The notes under the pieces: model-generated
Database searches by the model: none
What the model saw: only the letters and a program-made list of their open reading frames with translations
What the model was told of the DNA's origin: nothing
Made by a program: the position numbers and the translations under genes
Shown here: positions 22,311 through 28,727 of the stretch, piece by piece
Numbering within the stretch: position 1 is the stretch's first letter
Layout: each line of letters opens with the position of its first letter
NCBI GenBank assembly: GCA_903878125.1
Contig: CAIRGS010000101.1
Span: 1-38,308 of the forward strand
DNA length: 38,308 bases
Direction of reading: 5' to 3'
From: an uncultured Nitrosomonadales bacterium
GTDB lineage: Bacteria > Pseudomonadota > Gammaproteobacteria > Burkholderiales > Gallionellaceae

Positions 22311-22374
22311 GGTTGGGCTTCATTTCATTCAGCCCAAACTACCAAGCTGAACCATAGGAGAATGGAACCTATGG
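22311..22374. repeat. REP-like repeat copy 4 and adjacent hairpin
   Basis: GGTTGGGCTTCATTTCATTC then AGCCCAAACT (22311-22340) forms the clearest copy of the family. CCATAGG/CCTATGG (22352-22374) makes a second hairpin with an 9-base loop. Both lie behind pmbA and could end its transcript, although no T-run follows. Confidence 0.55.
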
Positions 22375-22906
22375 GAATAGTAAGGTTTTGAAGTGTGGCG
22401 TCAACCTTTTGTTCTGGTACGGCTTGCTTCCGCGCAGGTTGTAAAGGCGTGAAACCGAGATACTCGCCAGCCGTTCAAAGTGCACATCACCGAAAACCAA
22501 AAGAGCGCGTTCCATGAGCTTGTGGGTTGCAGGCCCGGACAGCGTGCTATGCAGCTCATCTATCTCGGCCAGCAAGGGCACGTCTGCTGAGGTATAGCGA
22601 TAGGTGAAGCCATGCATGGGTGAGCAGGTCTGTTTCGATAGCTTACCAGCCGTGCGGTATTGCCGTACCAGTCGGGTTACTTGCTGGCGTGATGCCCGGT
22701 CATGCGCTCGATATAGCGCAGCAGTACGCGCTTGTCGACCCGCCCGTGCGGGGCATAGCCAAACCGCTTGAGGACGCGCCCGATAAATTGGTTACGCTAT
22801 TTTTTTGAACTCGAAATACCACCCCCGATGTTCCGTTCAAAAATGCCTTGATCTGCACCAAGGTCTGTAGCTTTGCTTCTTCCATGTTGATCACCATGCC
22901 TCGCAT
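22369..22906 (-). pseudogene. Truncated, frameshifted IS integrase/transposase (N-terminal half)
   Basis: Three frames together rebuild one protein: VINMEEAKLQTLVQIKAFLN then GTSGVVFRVQ (22906-22800), NQFIGRVLKRFGYAPHGRVD and KRVLLRYIERMTGHHA (22800-22684), then QQVTRLVRQYRTAGKLSKQ, ADVPLLAEIDELHSTLSGPA, ERALLVFGDVHFERLASISV and LYNLRGSKPY (to 22369). This matches the helix-turn-helix half of a widespread rve-type integrase; the DDE half is gone. Two frameshifts (near 22800 and 22683) and the 3' loss show it is dead. No terminal repeats were recognised. Confidence 0.75.
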
Positions 22907-23131
22907 AATGACCGGCCCAGCAAATCAATTTCAGACTCATGTCATGTTGGAAATACGCCAATCCTTTAGACTTATTTGATATTGGAAAAGGCTTATGGTT
23001 GACGACCAAACCGTTTCCCGGTACATTTAGTTTTGGTGAAAAGGGGCGTTTATTTTTTCCTGTACACTGAATAACAATTGTATTCAAATTTGGAATTTAT
23101 AATCCAGCCAACTCAACACAAAGGAAAAAAT
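22907..23131. promoter_or_regulatory. Upstream region of the Cys-rich protein gene
   Basis: A perfect TATAAT at 23098-23103 lies 28 bp before the start codon. Immediately upstream is the near-palindrome GAATAACAATTGTATTC (23069-23085, centre ACAATTGT), where a -35 box should be; no good -35 match is seen, so an activator or repressor site is possible. The rest is gene-free. Confidence 0.45.
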
Positions 23132-23389
23132 ATGTTCAGCAAAATTTTGGTAACAATGGCAATGATCGGTTCAATGGCTTTATTCTCACAAGCAGCTCTT
23201 GCCAAAATTGGCGATGCTTGTAACAAAGACAATGCTACGACAGTATGTGACGCCAAGAAAAATGAAGCCTGCCTGTTGGCCGTTACTCCATCTAAATGTA
23301 TCGCGCTTCATTCACTTCCAAAAGGTACGGCATGTGTGAAACCTGCCGTATGTTCGTCAGACAAATGCACAGCTGGGAAATGCGAGTAA
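23132..23389 (+). CDS. Small secreted cysteine-rich protein, unknown function
   Basis: The 85-residue product was given a start at ATG 23132 (AAAGGAA 7 bp upstream), not the track's 23078. The signal peptide ILVTMAMIGSMALFSQAALA is followed by a mature part of about 60 residues with eight cysteines (DACNKD, TVCDAKKNEACL, SKCIAL, TACVKPAVCSSDKCTAGKC). The even number and the C-x5-C/C-x4-C spacing suggest four disulphides in the periplasm or outside. I know no firm family. It has its own promoter candidate and a strong terminator, so it is a single-gene unit. Confidence 0.8.
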   Translation: MFSKILVTMAMIGSMALFSQAALAKIGDACNKDNATTVCDAKKNEACLLAVTPSKCIALHSLPKGTACVKPAVCSSDKCTAGKCE

Positions 23390-23423: not shown

Positions 23424-23477
23424 ACCCGAATCTTCGAGATTTATTGCTTTAATAAATTTCGGAGATTCGGGTTTTTT
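23424..23477 (+). terminator. Rho-independent terminator of the Cys-rich gene
   Basis: ACCCGAATCTTCGAGATTTATT pairs with AATAAATTTCGGAGATTCGGGT around GCTTT, followed by TTTTTT. The stem is about 20 bp with one or two mismatches. It is the best terminator in the window. Confidence 0.92.
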
Positions 23478-23547: not shown

Positions 23548-25038
23548 ATGCCAGTATCAAAAGATGGATTGCCACGCAATCGTGACGTGCATGAAGATCT
23601 GATTCGTAAACTGCGAAAGCTGTTGCCGCCAGAAGCCATACTCACTGACAAAGAAGATCTACGCCCGTTCGAGTGTGACGGGCTATCAGTGTATCGACGT
23701 CTGCCCTTGGTCGTGGCTTTGCCTGAAACTATTGCGCAGGTGCAGGCCATCATGCGTCTGTGTCATGCTTTGCAGGTGCCCGTTGTGGCACGCGGTGCAG
23801 GCACCGGTTTGTCCGGTGGCGCTCTGCCTTTGTCTGATGGCGTATTGCTGAGCTTGGCAAAATTTAAACGCATACTCCATATCGATCCAGAAAATGCGTT
23901 GGCCATTTTACAACCGGGTGTGCGCAATCTGGCAATTTCCGAGGCCGCCGCCGCGTATGGAATGTATTACGCGCCTGACCCTTCCTCGCAGATTGCCTGC
24001 ACCATAGGCGGCAATGTTGCTGAAAATTCCGGCGGGGTGCATTGCCTGAAATATGGCCTGACGGTACACAACGTTCTGATGCTGAAAGTAGTGACGATGG
24101 AGGGGGAGTTGCTGACCATCGGTGCTGAAACACTGGATTCTCCGGGCTATGATCTGCTGGCATTGATGGCAGGCTCGGAGGGGATGCTGGCGGTGATCGT
24201 TGAGGTTACGGTGAAGCTGCTGGCCAAGCCGGAGCGCGCGCAAGTTTTGCTGGCGGCCTTTGATGATGTCTTCAAAGCCGGGGAAGCGGTCGGCGCGATA
24301 ATCGCTGCCGGTATTATTCCGGCCGGTCTGGAAATGATGGACAAGGTGGCCATTCATGCGGCAGAAGATTATGCGCATGCCGGTTATCCTCGTGATGCAG
24401 AGGCGATTTTGCTGTGCGAACTGGATGGCACGAATGCGGAAGTATCCGAGCACATCATGGAAGTGCGCGAAATATTGCACCAGAGCGGCGCGACCGAGGT
24501 GCGCACTGCCGTTAACGAAGCAGAGCGACAGCTGTTCTGGAAGGGGCGTAAATCAGCCTTCCCCGCAGTGGGGCGCATTTCGCCGGATTATTACTGCATG
24601 GATGGCACGATTCCACGCCGTCAATTGCCGCATGTATTGCGCCAGATCAGTTTATGGTCGGAAGAGTACGGCTTGCCGGTGGCGAATGTGTTTCATGCCG
24701 GAGATGGCAATCTGCATCCGTTAATTTTATTCGATGCCAATAAGGACGGCGAGTTGGCACGTACTGAGGAATTCGGTCAGCGTATCTTGCAACTGTGCGT
24801 CGAAGTGGGCGGATCTATCACTGGCGAGCATGGCGTCGGCATGGAAAAAATTAATCAGATGTGTATCCAGTTCAAAGCGGCCGAACTCAGCCAATTCCAC
24901 GCGGTTAAAGCCGCTTTCGATCCCGCCGGCTTGCTTAATCCCGGGAAAGCCGTGCCCACCTTGCAGCGCTGCGCAGAATTTGGCGCCATGCACGTCCATC
25001 ACGGACAGCTGCCCCATGCCGAACTGGAACGCTTCTGA
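23548..25038 (+). CDS. glcD: Glycolate oxidase FAD-linked subunit GlcD
   Basis: The 496-residue protein has a PCMH-type FAD domain (PVVARGAGTGLSGGALPLSD, PDPSSQIACTIGGNVAENSG, GVHCLKYGLTVHN) and a C-terminal cap (FHAGDGNLHPLILFD, GSITGEHGVGMEKINQM). GlcD with GlcE and GlcF oxidises glycolate to glyoxylate and passes electrons to the membrane quinone pool. Its stop overlaps the glcE start (TGATG). In an autotroph the enzyme salvages glycolate made by RuBisCO oxygenation; no RuBisCO gene is in view. GlcD and D-lactate dehydrogenases are close, but the glcEF neighbours settle the call. Confidence 0.93.
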   Translation: MPVSKDGLPRNRDVHEDLIRKLRKLLPPEAILTDKEDLRPFECDGLSVYRRLPLVVALPETIAQVQAIMRLCHALQVPVVARGAGTGLSGGALPLSDGVLLSLAKFKRILHIDPENALAILQPGVRNLAISEAAAAYGMYYAPDPSSQIACTIGGNVAENSGGVHCLKYGLTVHNVLMLKVVTMEGELLTIGAETLDSPGYDLLALMAGSEGMLAVIVEVTVKLLAKPERAQVLLAAFDDVFKAGEAVGAIIAAGIIPAGLEMMDKVAIHAAEDYAHAGYPRDAEAILLCELDGTNAEVSEHIMEVREILHQSGATEVRTAVNEAERQLFWKGRKSAFPAVGRISPDYYCMDGTIPRRQLPHVLRQISLWSEEYGLPVANVFHAGDGNLHPLILFDANKDGELARTEEFGQRILQLCVEVGGSITGEHGVGMEKINQMCIQFKAAELSQFHAVKAAFDPAGLLNPGKAVPTLQRCAEFGAMHVHHGQLPHAELERF

Positions 25039-26102
25039 TGTGGGAGTGCGATATCAGTGAGACACTGCAGCAGCAGGTGCGCAACGCCGTCGGTAACGGG
25101 ACACCGCTCAAAATTGAAGGCGGCAATAGCAAAATATTTTTAGGACAAGAGACGCACGGCGAAATTCTGGATGTCAGCGGCCATCGCGGCATCGTCGAAC
25201 ATGATCCGTGCGAGTTGGTTTTGACTGCACGTAGCGGCACGCCGCTCAAAGATATTGAAGTCGCGTTGGCAGAAGCCGGGCAGATGCTGGCATTCGAGCC
25301 GCCACATTTTGGTGATAATGCTACCTTGGGTGGCACCATTGCCTGCGGTTTGTCTGGGCCGCGTCGTCCTTTTTGCGGCTCTGCCCGCGATTTTGTATTG
25401 GGCTGCAAGCTGCTCAATGGCAAGGGCGAGATATTGCGCTTCGGCGGCCAGGTAATAAAAAACGTGGCGGGCTACGATGTCTCGCGCCTGATGGTCGGTG
25501 CATATGGCACGCTGGGTGTGTTGCTGGAAATCAGCTTGAAAGTGCTGCCGCGCCCGGCGGCGAGTCACACTCTGATACAGGAATGCACTCAAGCTGAAGC
25601 CATCAGCAAAATGAGCCGCTTGCTGTCCCAGCCCGTGCCGGTCGATGCGGCCTGTTATCATGCGGGGCACTGTTATGTGCGCCTGTCCGGCAGCGAGCAA
25701 GCAGTCAAGCATGCCCACGAGCATTTGGGCGGCGAAGTGATAGAGAAATCAGAACCTTTCTGGCACGCCTTACGCGAACATCATTTGCCATTTTTTGGTT
25801 CCGCGAATCCGTTGTATCGCGTAATGGTAAAGCCCGCCGTGCCACCTTTAGAAATTGCCGGCGAATGGCTGCTCGATTGGGGTGGTGCGCAGCGTTGGCT
25901 AGTAAGTGACGAACCGATTGTGTTGATACGCGAACGCGTCGCTACAGTAGGCGGCCATGTCACCCAGTTCCGGGGCTGCGAACACAATGGCGAAATATTT
26001 CAGCCGCTCGCCGCGCCATTGCTCGTCATTCATCAACGCCTGAAATCCAGTTTTGATCCACACGGAATTTTTAACCGGGGGCGCATGTACGCCAACTTGT
26101 AA
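25038..26102 (+). CDS. glcE: Glycolate oxidase FAD-binding subunit GlcE
   Basis: The 354-residue product is a second FAD-binding PCMH domain, shorter than GlcD: PLKIEGGNSKIFLGQ, EPPHFGDNATLGGTIACGLS, GPRRPFCGSARDFVLGCKLL and VIKNVAGYDVSRLMVGAYGT. The C-terminus FDPHGIFNRGRMYANL closes the fold. It forms the GlcDEF complex. It is translationally coupled to glcD and 5 bp from glcF. Confidence 0.93.
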   Translation: MWECDISETLQQQVRNAVGNGTPLKIEGGNSKIFLGQETHGEILDVSGHRGIVEHDPCELVLTARSGTPLKDIEVALAEAGQMLAFEPPHFGDNATLGGTIACGLSGPRRPFCGSARDFVLGCKLLNGKGEILRFGGQVIKNVAGYDVSRLMVGAYGTLGVLLEISLKVLPRPAASHTLIQECTQAEAISKMSRLLSQPVPVDAACYHAGHCYVRLSGSEQAVKHAHEHLGGEVIEKSEPFWHALREHHLPFFGSANPLYRVMVKPAVPPLEIAGEWLLDWGGAQRWLVSDEPIVLIRERVATVGGHVTQFRGCEHNGEIFQPLAAPLLVIHQRLKSSFDPHGIFNRGRMYANL

Positions 26103-26107
26103 GCCAT

Positions 26108-27340
26108 ATGCAAACTGCCATTGCTCCTGAACTCTTGGTTAACCCCGACATTGCCGAAGCCAATGCGATTCTGCGTTCTTGCGTGCACTGCGGATTTTGC
26201 AACGCCACTTGCCCCACCTATCAGTTGCTTGGCAACGAACTGGATGGCCCACGTGGGCGTATTTATCTGATCAAGGAAATGCTGGAAGGCAATCAATCCA
26301 GCGAGAAGACGCAATTGCATCTGGACCGTTGCCTGACCTGCCGCGCCTGTGAAACCACGTGTCCATCCGGTGTGCAGTATGGTCGTTTGATTGACATCGG
26401 GCGGCAGATCATTGAGGAGCGTGCGCCGCGTCCATTGTGGCAAAAAATTGTGCGGCGCAGTCTGCTGGCAGTGCTGCCGTATCCCAAGCGTTTTGCGCTG
26501 GTGCTTGGCATTGGCCGTGTGGTGCGCCCATTATTACCACTTTCTTTGCAACGTAAAATCCCGACTCAACGACGGGTGCAGTCAGCTCGTCCGCAAGCAA
26601 TTCATCCGCGCAGCATGCTGGTATTGGAAGGTTGTGTGCAGTCGCTGAGTGCGCCAAATATCAACACTGCTGCTGCATGCGTGCTGGATAAACTGGGCAT
26701 TTCTTTAATCAGTGCCTCCAGGGCCGGCTGCTGTGGAGCCCTCAATCAGCACTTGGCTGATATTAATGGGGCGCATGACATGATGCGCCGCAATATTGAT
26801 GCCTGGTGGCCGTATATTGAGCAAGGCGCAGAGGCTATTGTGATGAGTTCCAGCGGCTGCGGCCTGATGGTGAAAGAATACGGCACAACGCTGAAACATG
26901 ATCCAAATTATGCCGCGAAGGCGGCACGCATCAGCGAATTGACACGCGACTTGAGCGAAATTCTGAGCCGCGAAAATTTGAGTGCCTTGGCCGATGTTGG
27001 AAAAGGCGTCCGCGTTGCTTATCAATCGTCTTGTACCTTGCAGCATGGGCAAAAACTGCCTGGGGTAGTTGAAACTATCCTGCAAAACTGCGGTTACATG
27101 CTGACGCCAGTTGCGGACAGCCATCTGTGCTGTGGCGCTGCGGGCACTTATACGCTGATGCAACCTGCGCTGTCGCAGCAGCTGCTGGAAAATAAGTTGG
27201 ATGCACTGCAACGGGGCTCGGCCGAGGTCATCGCCACCGCCAACATTGGCTGCCAGCTGCATTTGGAAAGTGCAGCCCACTTGCCGGTTAAACACTGGAT
27301 CGAGCTGTTGCAACCATTTCCCCAACAAGGGCCGCCCTGA
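26108..27340 (+). CDS. glcF: Glycolate oxidase iron-sulfur subunit GlcF
   Basis: The 410-residue protein has two 4Fe-4S ferredoxin motifs (CVHCGFCNATCPTYQ and CLTCRACETTCPSGVQ) and two CCG domains (SRAGCCGALNQHL and DSHLCCGAAGTYTLMQ). It carries electrons from the flavin subunits to the quinone pool. The stop codon TGA lies within the 6-bp target duplication of the MITE-like element, so the element joined exactly at the end of the gene without harming it. Confidence 0.95.
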   Translation: MQTAIAPELLVNPDIAEANAILRSCVHCGFCNATCPTYQLLGNELDGPRGRIYLIKEMLEGNQSSEKTQLHLDRCLTCRACETTCPSGVQYGRLIDIGRQIIEERAPRPLWQKIVRRSLLAVLPYPKRFALVLGIGRVVRPLLPLSLQRKIPTQRRVQSARPQAIHPRSMLVLEGCVQSLSAPNINTAAACVLDKLGISLISASRAGCCGALNQHLADINGAHDMMRRNIDAWWPYIEQGAEAIVMSSSGCGLMVKEYGTTLKHDPNYAAKAARISELTRDLSEILSRENLSALADVGKGVRVAYQSSCTLQHGQKLPGVVETILQNCGYMLTPVADSHLCCGAAGTYTLMQPALSQQLLENKLDALQRGSAEVIATANIGCQLHLESAAHLPVKHWIELLQPFPQQGPP

Positions 27341-27341
27341 A

Positions 27342-27479
27342 GCGCCTCTAAAAATCCAAGTTTCGTCGCAATACGGCGTTACTCGAAAAAAATTATCGCT
27401 TACATATTAACTATATGCCGCGCTCAAATTTTTTTAGTCGTGCCTTGTCTTGCTTAGAAACTTGAATTTTTAGAGGCGC
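27342..27479. mobile_element. MITE-like element, short copy
   Basis: The terminal inverted repeats are GCGCCTCTAAAAATCCAAGT (left) and the reverse complement of ACTTGAATTTTTAGAGGCGC (right), and flanks CCTGAA are duplicated at 27336-27341 and 27480-27485. It is 138 bp with no ORF. It closely matches the element at 37010-37188, but lacks about 40 bp near the left end. It lies directly after the glcF stop. Confidence 0.75.
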
Positions 27480-27545
27480 CCTGAAAGCAGTGAAAAAAGT
27501 TAAAATGCCGTATTTAACGAATCGCAACCCGCAAGGAGAAAAAGC

Positions 27546-28727
27546 ATGGCAATAAAATCGTTCCATCCCCCGCAACGCATTTTGATGGGCCCAGGTCCTT
27601 CAGATGTCAGCTCACGTGTACTGGAGGCCTTGTCGCGCCCCACTATCGGCCATCTTGATCCAGTGTTCGTAACGATGATGGACGAGATGAAAGAGCTGTT
27701 GAAGTACGCTTTCCAGACTAAAAATGAATTGACTATGCCCGTTTCTGCCCCCGGCTCGGCCGGAATGGAAACCTGCTTCGTCAATCTGGTCGAACCCGGC
27801 GACAAGGTCATCGTATGTCAGAATGGAGTGTTCGGCGGACGCATGAAGGAAAACGTTGAGCGCGGCGGCGGCATTGCAGTGATGGTGCAGGACGATTGGG
27901 GACGCGCAGTTGACCCGCAAAAAGTGGAAGATGCACTCAAGGCTAATCCTGATGCCAAGATTGTTGCGTTTGTCCATGCAGAAACTTCCACAGGCGCCCT
28001 GTCTGATGCCAAAACCTTGGTGGCGCTTGCCCATAAATATGGTTGCTTGACCATTGTGGATGCAGTCACTTCACTAGCCGGTTCGCCACTCAAGGTCGAC
28101 GAATGGGAAATAGACGCTATTTATTCCGGCACGCAAAAATGCCTCTCCTGTACGCCTGGACTTTCCCCAGTCAGCTTTAGTACGCGCGCGTTGGAGAAAA
28201 TCAAGAACCGTAAAAACAAAGTGCAAAGCTGGTTCCTGGATTTGAATCTGGTCATGAGTTATTGGGGCGGATCAACCAAGCGCGCCTACCATCACACTGC
28301 TCCGATCAACGCGTTATATGGCTTGCACGAATCATTGGTGATGTTGCAGGAAGAAGGCCTGGAAAATTCATGGGCTCGCCACACGAAAAATCACCTTGCC
28401 TTGCGCGCTGGTCTGGAAGCAATGGGATTGAAGTTTGTGGTGCCAGAATCTGAGCGTCTGCCACAACTGAACGCACTTACTATTCCTGATGGCGTGGACG
28501 ATGCCGTCGTGCGCTCCACCCTGCTAAACGATTATCAACTGGAAATTGGTGCGGGCCTGGGCGTAATGGCAGGCAAGGTGTGGCGCATAGGCTTGATGGG
28601 TTACGCCAGTAATAAGAGCAACATTTTGGTGTGCCTCGGTGCGCTGGATGACGTATTAGGCAGGATGAAGGCACCGGTTCAGCATGGTGTGGCAGTAGCT
28701 GCAGCGCAAAAAGTTCTGGCGGGCTGA
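27546..28727 (+). CDS. Class V aminotransferase, serine/alanine-glyoxylate type
   Basis: The 393-residue PLP enzyme of fold type I has PPQRILMGPGPSDVSSRVLE, SAPGSAGMETCFVNLVEPGD, VHAETSTGALSDAKTLV, the aspartate in LTIVDAVTSLAG and the PLP lysine in YSGTQKCLSCTPGLSPVSF. It makes glycine from glyoxylate using serine or alanine, taking the product of GlcDEF just upstream. The two genes are separated by the MITE, and a strong ribosome site (AAGGAG) stands 10 bp before ATG. Phosphonate (2-AEP) transaminase relatives exist, but the context favours glyoxylate. Confidence 0.88.
   Translation: MAIKSFHPPQRILMGPGPSDVSSRVLEALSRPTIGHLDPVFVTMMDEMKELLKYAFQTKNELTMPVSAPGSAGMETCFVNLVEPGDKVIVCQNGVFGGRMKENVERGGGIAVMVQDDWGRAVDPQKVEDALKANPDAKIVAFVHAETSTGALSDAKTLVALAHKYGCLTIVDAVTSLAGSPLKVDEWEIDAIYSGTQKCLSCTPGLSPVSFSTRALEKIKNRKNKVQSWFLDLNLVMSYWGGSTKRAYHHTAPINALYGLHESLVMLQEEGLENSWARHTKNHLALRAGLEAMGLKFVVPESERLPQLNALTIPDGVDDAVVRSTLLNDYQLEIGAGLGVMAGKVWRIGLMGYASNKSNILVCLGALDDVLGRMKAPVQHGVAVAAAQKVLAG

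Follow-up and report, generated by a model that had tools for sequence, protein, structure and literature searches.

Introduction

What kind of protein is encoded by the short open reading frame at positions 23132-23389 of the stretch of bacterial DNA analysed here, and what might it do for its host? The stretch, hereafter the window, is 38,308 nucleotides long, and its nearest named relatives are mostly Candidatus Nitrotoga records (93-99% protein identity), which indicates that the host is a nitrite-oxidising member of this genus. A preliminary description of the locus proposed an unrecognised, small exported protein with eight cysteines, encoded by a single-gene unit. No description of this Nitrotoga protein was found in the literature.

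Results

A conserved gene for a small, probably exported protein

The reading frame begins with ATG, ends with TAA and encodes 85 residues (Table 1). Its N-terminal segment, MFSKILVTMAMIGSMALFSQAALA, was recognised by eye as a signal peptide that ends in an ALA cleavage motif, and we infer that the protein is exported. All eight cysteines (C30, C39, C47, C56, C68, C74, C79 and C84) fall within the mature part of 61 residues. The protein contains neither a CXXC motif nor a CC pair, and no catalytic residues are evident. In the complementary frame, the opposite strand carries several stops. The proposed small exported protein from a single-gene unit is supported, with the signal peptide assigned by eye.

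Table 1. Features of the eight-cysteine gene and its flanks in the window
Feature	Positions	Strand	Basis
Candidate sigma-70-like promoter, TTGACG-17-TACATT	22999..23027	+	9/12 consensus matches
Alternative -10 element, TATAAT	23098..23103	+	Sequence; kept in 6/8 orthologues including G008
Ribosome-binding site, AAAGGAA	23120..23126	+	Sequence; invariant in 8/8 aligned orthologues
CDS, 85-residue eight-cysteine precursor	23132..23389	+	Sequence; orthologues with mostly synonymous differences
Sec-type signal peptide, residues 1-24, putative cleavage after ALA	23132..23203	+	By eye; conserved in orthologues and distant relatives
Mature eight-cysteine domain, residues 25-85	23204..23386	+	Cysteine pattern aligned with relatives and Dkk4 CRD1
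Intrinsic terminator, 20-bp stem and T tract	23425..23477	+	Folding; conserved in most orthologues

A clear match to the protein is present in 9 of 19 Nitrotoga genomes, and the gene is full-length and intact in 8 of the 19 (identity 92-99%). Compared with the copy in genome G014, the window gene carries 12 synonymous and 2 nonsynonymous differences, with 2, 0 and 12 changes at codon positions 1, 2 and 3, respectively. Compared with that in G006, the codon differences are 14 synonymous and 3 nonsynonymous, and 17 of 19 base changes fall at third positions. This pattern indicates that the gene is under purifying selection where it is kept.

Other members of the genus lack an intact copy. In genome G007, all that is left is a degenerate trace of the part encoding the signal peptide (BLASTN E 1.8e-11), the remnant in G009 has lost the promoter and the signal peptide and is separated from its terminator by a contig break, and the gene was not found upstream of glcD in G001, G013, G015 and G005. 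Because the gene is absent, broken or reduced to a relic in these genomes, the protein appears to be useful and not essential. The best reading of its distribution is a conditional benefit, conferred by a protein that is conserved but dispensable.

Transcription signals and genomic surroundings

The predicted terminator comprises a 20-pair stem followed by six T residues, and its folding energy of -35.9 kcal/mol compares with a mean of -11.6 for shuffled sequences (z = -10.1). It is retained in the orthologues of G018, G010, G014, G017 and G003 and with the remnant in G009; G006 and G008, which have a different sequence downstream of the gene, lack it. The very strong terminator noted in the preliminary description is therefore real. 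That the hairpin might be a mobile repeat was rejected, as the genome holds only one copy.

The proposal that the gene has its own promoter with a palindrome fared less evenly. The candidate promoter listed in Table 1 is kept in 7 of 8 orthologues (it is replaced in G008), although such a match does not rise above shuffled sequence (one match, 1.9 expected). In contrast, the orthologues do not preserve the palindrome GAATA-N7-TATTC (23069-23085), and the idea of a conserved operator was discarded. Between pmbA and the promoter (22369-22906), short reverse-strand frames resemble transposase remnants by eye and have no Pfam match.

In Nitrotoga the gene lies directly upstream of glcD, and its left neighbour differs between genomes. 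The window and G018 have pmbA in this place, G006 and G008 have a citE-sucC-sucD-type cluster (the setting also of the relic in G007), and G003 and G017 have rlmB. These names were assigned from the look of the sequences, with pmbA and glcD confirmed by Pfam. The downstream region of the window (23548-28727) carries glycolate oxidase-like glcD, glcE and glcF genes and a class-V aminotransferase gene. Co-function with glcDEF, as the position of the gene just upstream of glcD might suggest, was rejected as evidence because the terminator intervenes in most genomes, because glcD remains in genomes without the gene, and because the neighbours differ outside Nitrotoga. The neighbouring genes gave no functional hint. 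Searches of phages, plasmids and viral contigs yielded no match to the protein, so that nothing suggests a gene carried as cargo by a mobile element.

Relatives in other Pseudomonadota and kinship to Dickkopf_N

Searched alone, the window protein has no match among Pfam (at E values up to 10), NCBIfam or PDB sequences. However, profile searches recovered proteins with a signal peptide and eight cysteines in register from several other Gallionellaceae, and the same architecture occurs in G741, a genome from another family of the class, and in five genomes from other families of the phylum. The distribution is sparse, with matches at E 0.001 in 3 of 369 genomes sampled from the class and in 8 of 399 sampled from the phylum; both counts include the genome of the window, and some matches span only part of the profile. 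When scored with a profile built only from relatives outside Nitrotoga, the window protein reaches 26.5 bits, compared with a maximum of 19.0 bits for 2000 cysteine-preserving shuffles of the same protein. Cysteine spacing is therefore not the sole basis of its kinship to these relatives, and the protein belongs to a grouping that we define here as stand-alone eight-cysteine exported proteins of Pseudomonadota. The short relatives share the spacing C-x4-C-x5-C-x8-C-x9-C-x5-C-x4-C-x10-C.

Four relatives score above the Pfam gathering cut-off of 25 bits for Dickkopf_N (PF04706), with 28.2, 27.0, 29.2 and 27.3 bits, and six further relatives fall just under it (22.1-24.7 bits). The single match of the family profile to PDB sequences, a weak one (E 5.4), is the first cysteine-rich domain of Dkk4 (Dkk4 CRD1). 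Most known domains of the Dickkopf_N type come from animal proteins that regulate Wnt signalling, and no function was described for stand-alone bacterial proteins of this type in the literature searched. Thus, the term 'unrecognised' holds for the window protein itself, but not for its relatives. The preliminary description had named a match to a known family of described function as the finding that would overturn it, and this came about only by half, because the relatives carry a recognisable domain to which the literature searched assigns no function in stand-alone bacterial proteins.

The window protein resembles Dickkopf_N and Dkk4 CRD1 (PDB 5o57) in being a presumably exported cysteine-rich domain with the eight-cysteine spacing and two predicted half-repeats. 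Unlike Dickkopf_N proteins, it is bacterial, stands alone at 61 residues, falls itself below detection, and has neither a CRD2 nor a Wnt context. DUF7107 (PF23416) and Myxo_Cys_RPT (TIGR04201) have half-repeats of a comparable pattern, C-x(4-5)-C-x(4-5)-C, but match only below their curated cut-offs. The adjacent cysteines of the WAP four-disulphide core are missing from the window protein, and the WAP model matches only one member of the family (E 1.2). The window protein is best read as a distant bacterial cousin of the Dickkopf/colipase-type disulphide-rich domain that has drifted beyond the Pfam model. The kind of domain is known; its stand-alone bacterial form with eight cysteines is new.

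Predicted fold and disulphide pairing

The predicted structure of one relative has a pLDDT of 93.2, and its top PDB neighbours by Foldseek are draxin with DCC, mamba intestinal toxin 1 (MIT1), Dkk4 CRD1 and Dkk1, all of which we take to be of the Dkk/colipase type. The best of these matches has an E value of 0.13 and probabilities reach 0.84, with none significant at E 0.001. Proteins of the colipase fold (Dkk1 CRD2, draxin, MIT1/prokineticin) are thus the nearest structural neighbours of this model through matches that are individually not significant, and they differ from the eight-cysteine family in size and loop lengths. The model of the window protein (pLDDT 72.5) gave no meaningful fold match in a PDB search.

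Dkk4 CRD1 contains the disulphides 41-53, 47-63, 73-85, 79-90 and 66-80; the two halves repeat one another structurally, and the C66-C80 bond connects both ends of the linking loop (PMC6078440). The spacing of the eight cysteines in the short relatives fits these positions minus 66 and 80. A Dickkopf_N domain of the Dkk4 CRD1 kind has ten cysteines in five disulphides, whereas the window protein has eight cysteines and, judged by spacing, the positions of Dkk4 C66 and C80 are empty. Because both partners of this pair are absent, the bacterial family would have exactly one disulphide fewer, with none half-formed. The spacing fits two half-repeats with 1-3 and 2-4 disulphides each, and by comparison with Dkk4 CRD1, not by reading from the model, we predict for the window protein the pairs C30-C47, C39-C56, C68-C79 and C74-C84 and a Dickkopf-N/colipase-like fold. 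The genome encodes DsbB (4.9e-44), and an oxidising periplasm is therefore expected.

Discussion

A putative binding module

On balance, we lean towards the view that the protein is an exported, four-disulphide binding module of the Dkk/colipase type, with most of the doubt attached to its role and little to the gene. The gene would form a transcription unit by itself, with a promoter and a terminator of its own, and the Sec pathway would export the small product to the periplasm, where DsbA/DsbB would oxidise the eight cysteines, giving each half of the internally repeated fold two of the four disulphides. The resulting rigid module might then hold a protein or another ligand, either within the periplasm or immediately outside the cell. 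A binding role is our guess by analogy, favoured over catalysis because of the size of the protein, the lack of evident catalytic residues and the fold class.

A broader proposal, which is possible but rather doubtful, is that there exists a hitherto undescribed bacterial family of Dickkopf/colipase-fold mini-proteins, stand-alone and exported, which may have spread by single-gene transfer among distant Pseudomonadota and which act as secreted ligands or inhibitors in nitrite- and iron-oxidising communities. A stand-alone bacterial version with exactly one disulphide fewer would provide a minimal model for the origin of the fold and for what it binds. For nitrite oxidisers, the gene points to a conserved, dispensable exported protein of the kind that a metabolic survey would miss. 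Its importance is, for now, modest.

Alternative functions

Among other functions, the protein might be secreted to inhibit a protease or another hydrolase, using a disulphide-knotted half-domain much as carboxypeptidase, squash or WAP-type inhibitors do. The Foldseek neighbours of the relative's model do include the Ascaris carboxypeptidase inhibitor, squash trypsin inhibitors and SLPI, but the alignments span just 24-34 columns and are weak, with E values of 1.9 at best. Moreover, the loop that is best conserved among the relatives (ACKRDAVC) reads ACVKPAVC in Nitrotoga, so that the proteins show no reactive loop in common. We therefore consider an inhibitor unlikely.

With eight cysteines in 61 residues and hosts that oxidise iron or nitrite, a periplasmic metal-binding or thiol-redox protein, whose cysteines serve as ligands in place of structural disulphides, could also be imagined. 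This is improbable given that 8/8 cysteines fit positions that form disulphides in a known fold whose cysteines are all paired (Dkk4 CRD1, PMC6078440), that CXXC is missing, and that the host has DsbB. A secreted, antagonistic, bacteriocin-like peptide would agree with patchy presence, a single exported gene product and half-domains like an inhibitor cystine knot (ICK). It is nonetheless very improbable, as no adjacent immunity or export gene was recognised in the contexts seen, the leader is a Sec signal peptide and not a bacteriocin leader, and the sequence is almost invariant under purifying selection. The notion that the frame arose by chance and is no real gene has nothing but small size in its favour and is refuted by conservation, namely orthologues with mostly synonymous differences and a conserved ribosome-binding site and terminator, which leaves it barely conceivable.

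The Dkk/colipase-type binding module thus remains our preferred reading, and several related architectures were observed alongside it. The relative in G741 (L096:1435-1683) has a signal peptide very like those of the Gallionellaceae proteins and a mature part 78% identical to that of G038; it is flanked by genes that are restriction-modification-like on one side and VWA-domain-like on the other, and may have been acquired by horizontal transfer. Long proteins from the same order (L043-L053) are likewise bacterial and Dickkopf_N positive, but differ from the stand-alone small proteins in that their tandem Dickkopf_N repeats lie inside long open frames (612-934 residues), in one case (L045) joined to an apparent peptidase domain. 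In a small protein of another member of the Gallionellaceae (G136, L042:1501-1809), a signal peptide near-identical to those of the eight-cysteine relatives is fused to an apparent Sel1-type repeat, an arrangement that suggests signal-peptide shuffling.
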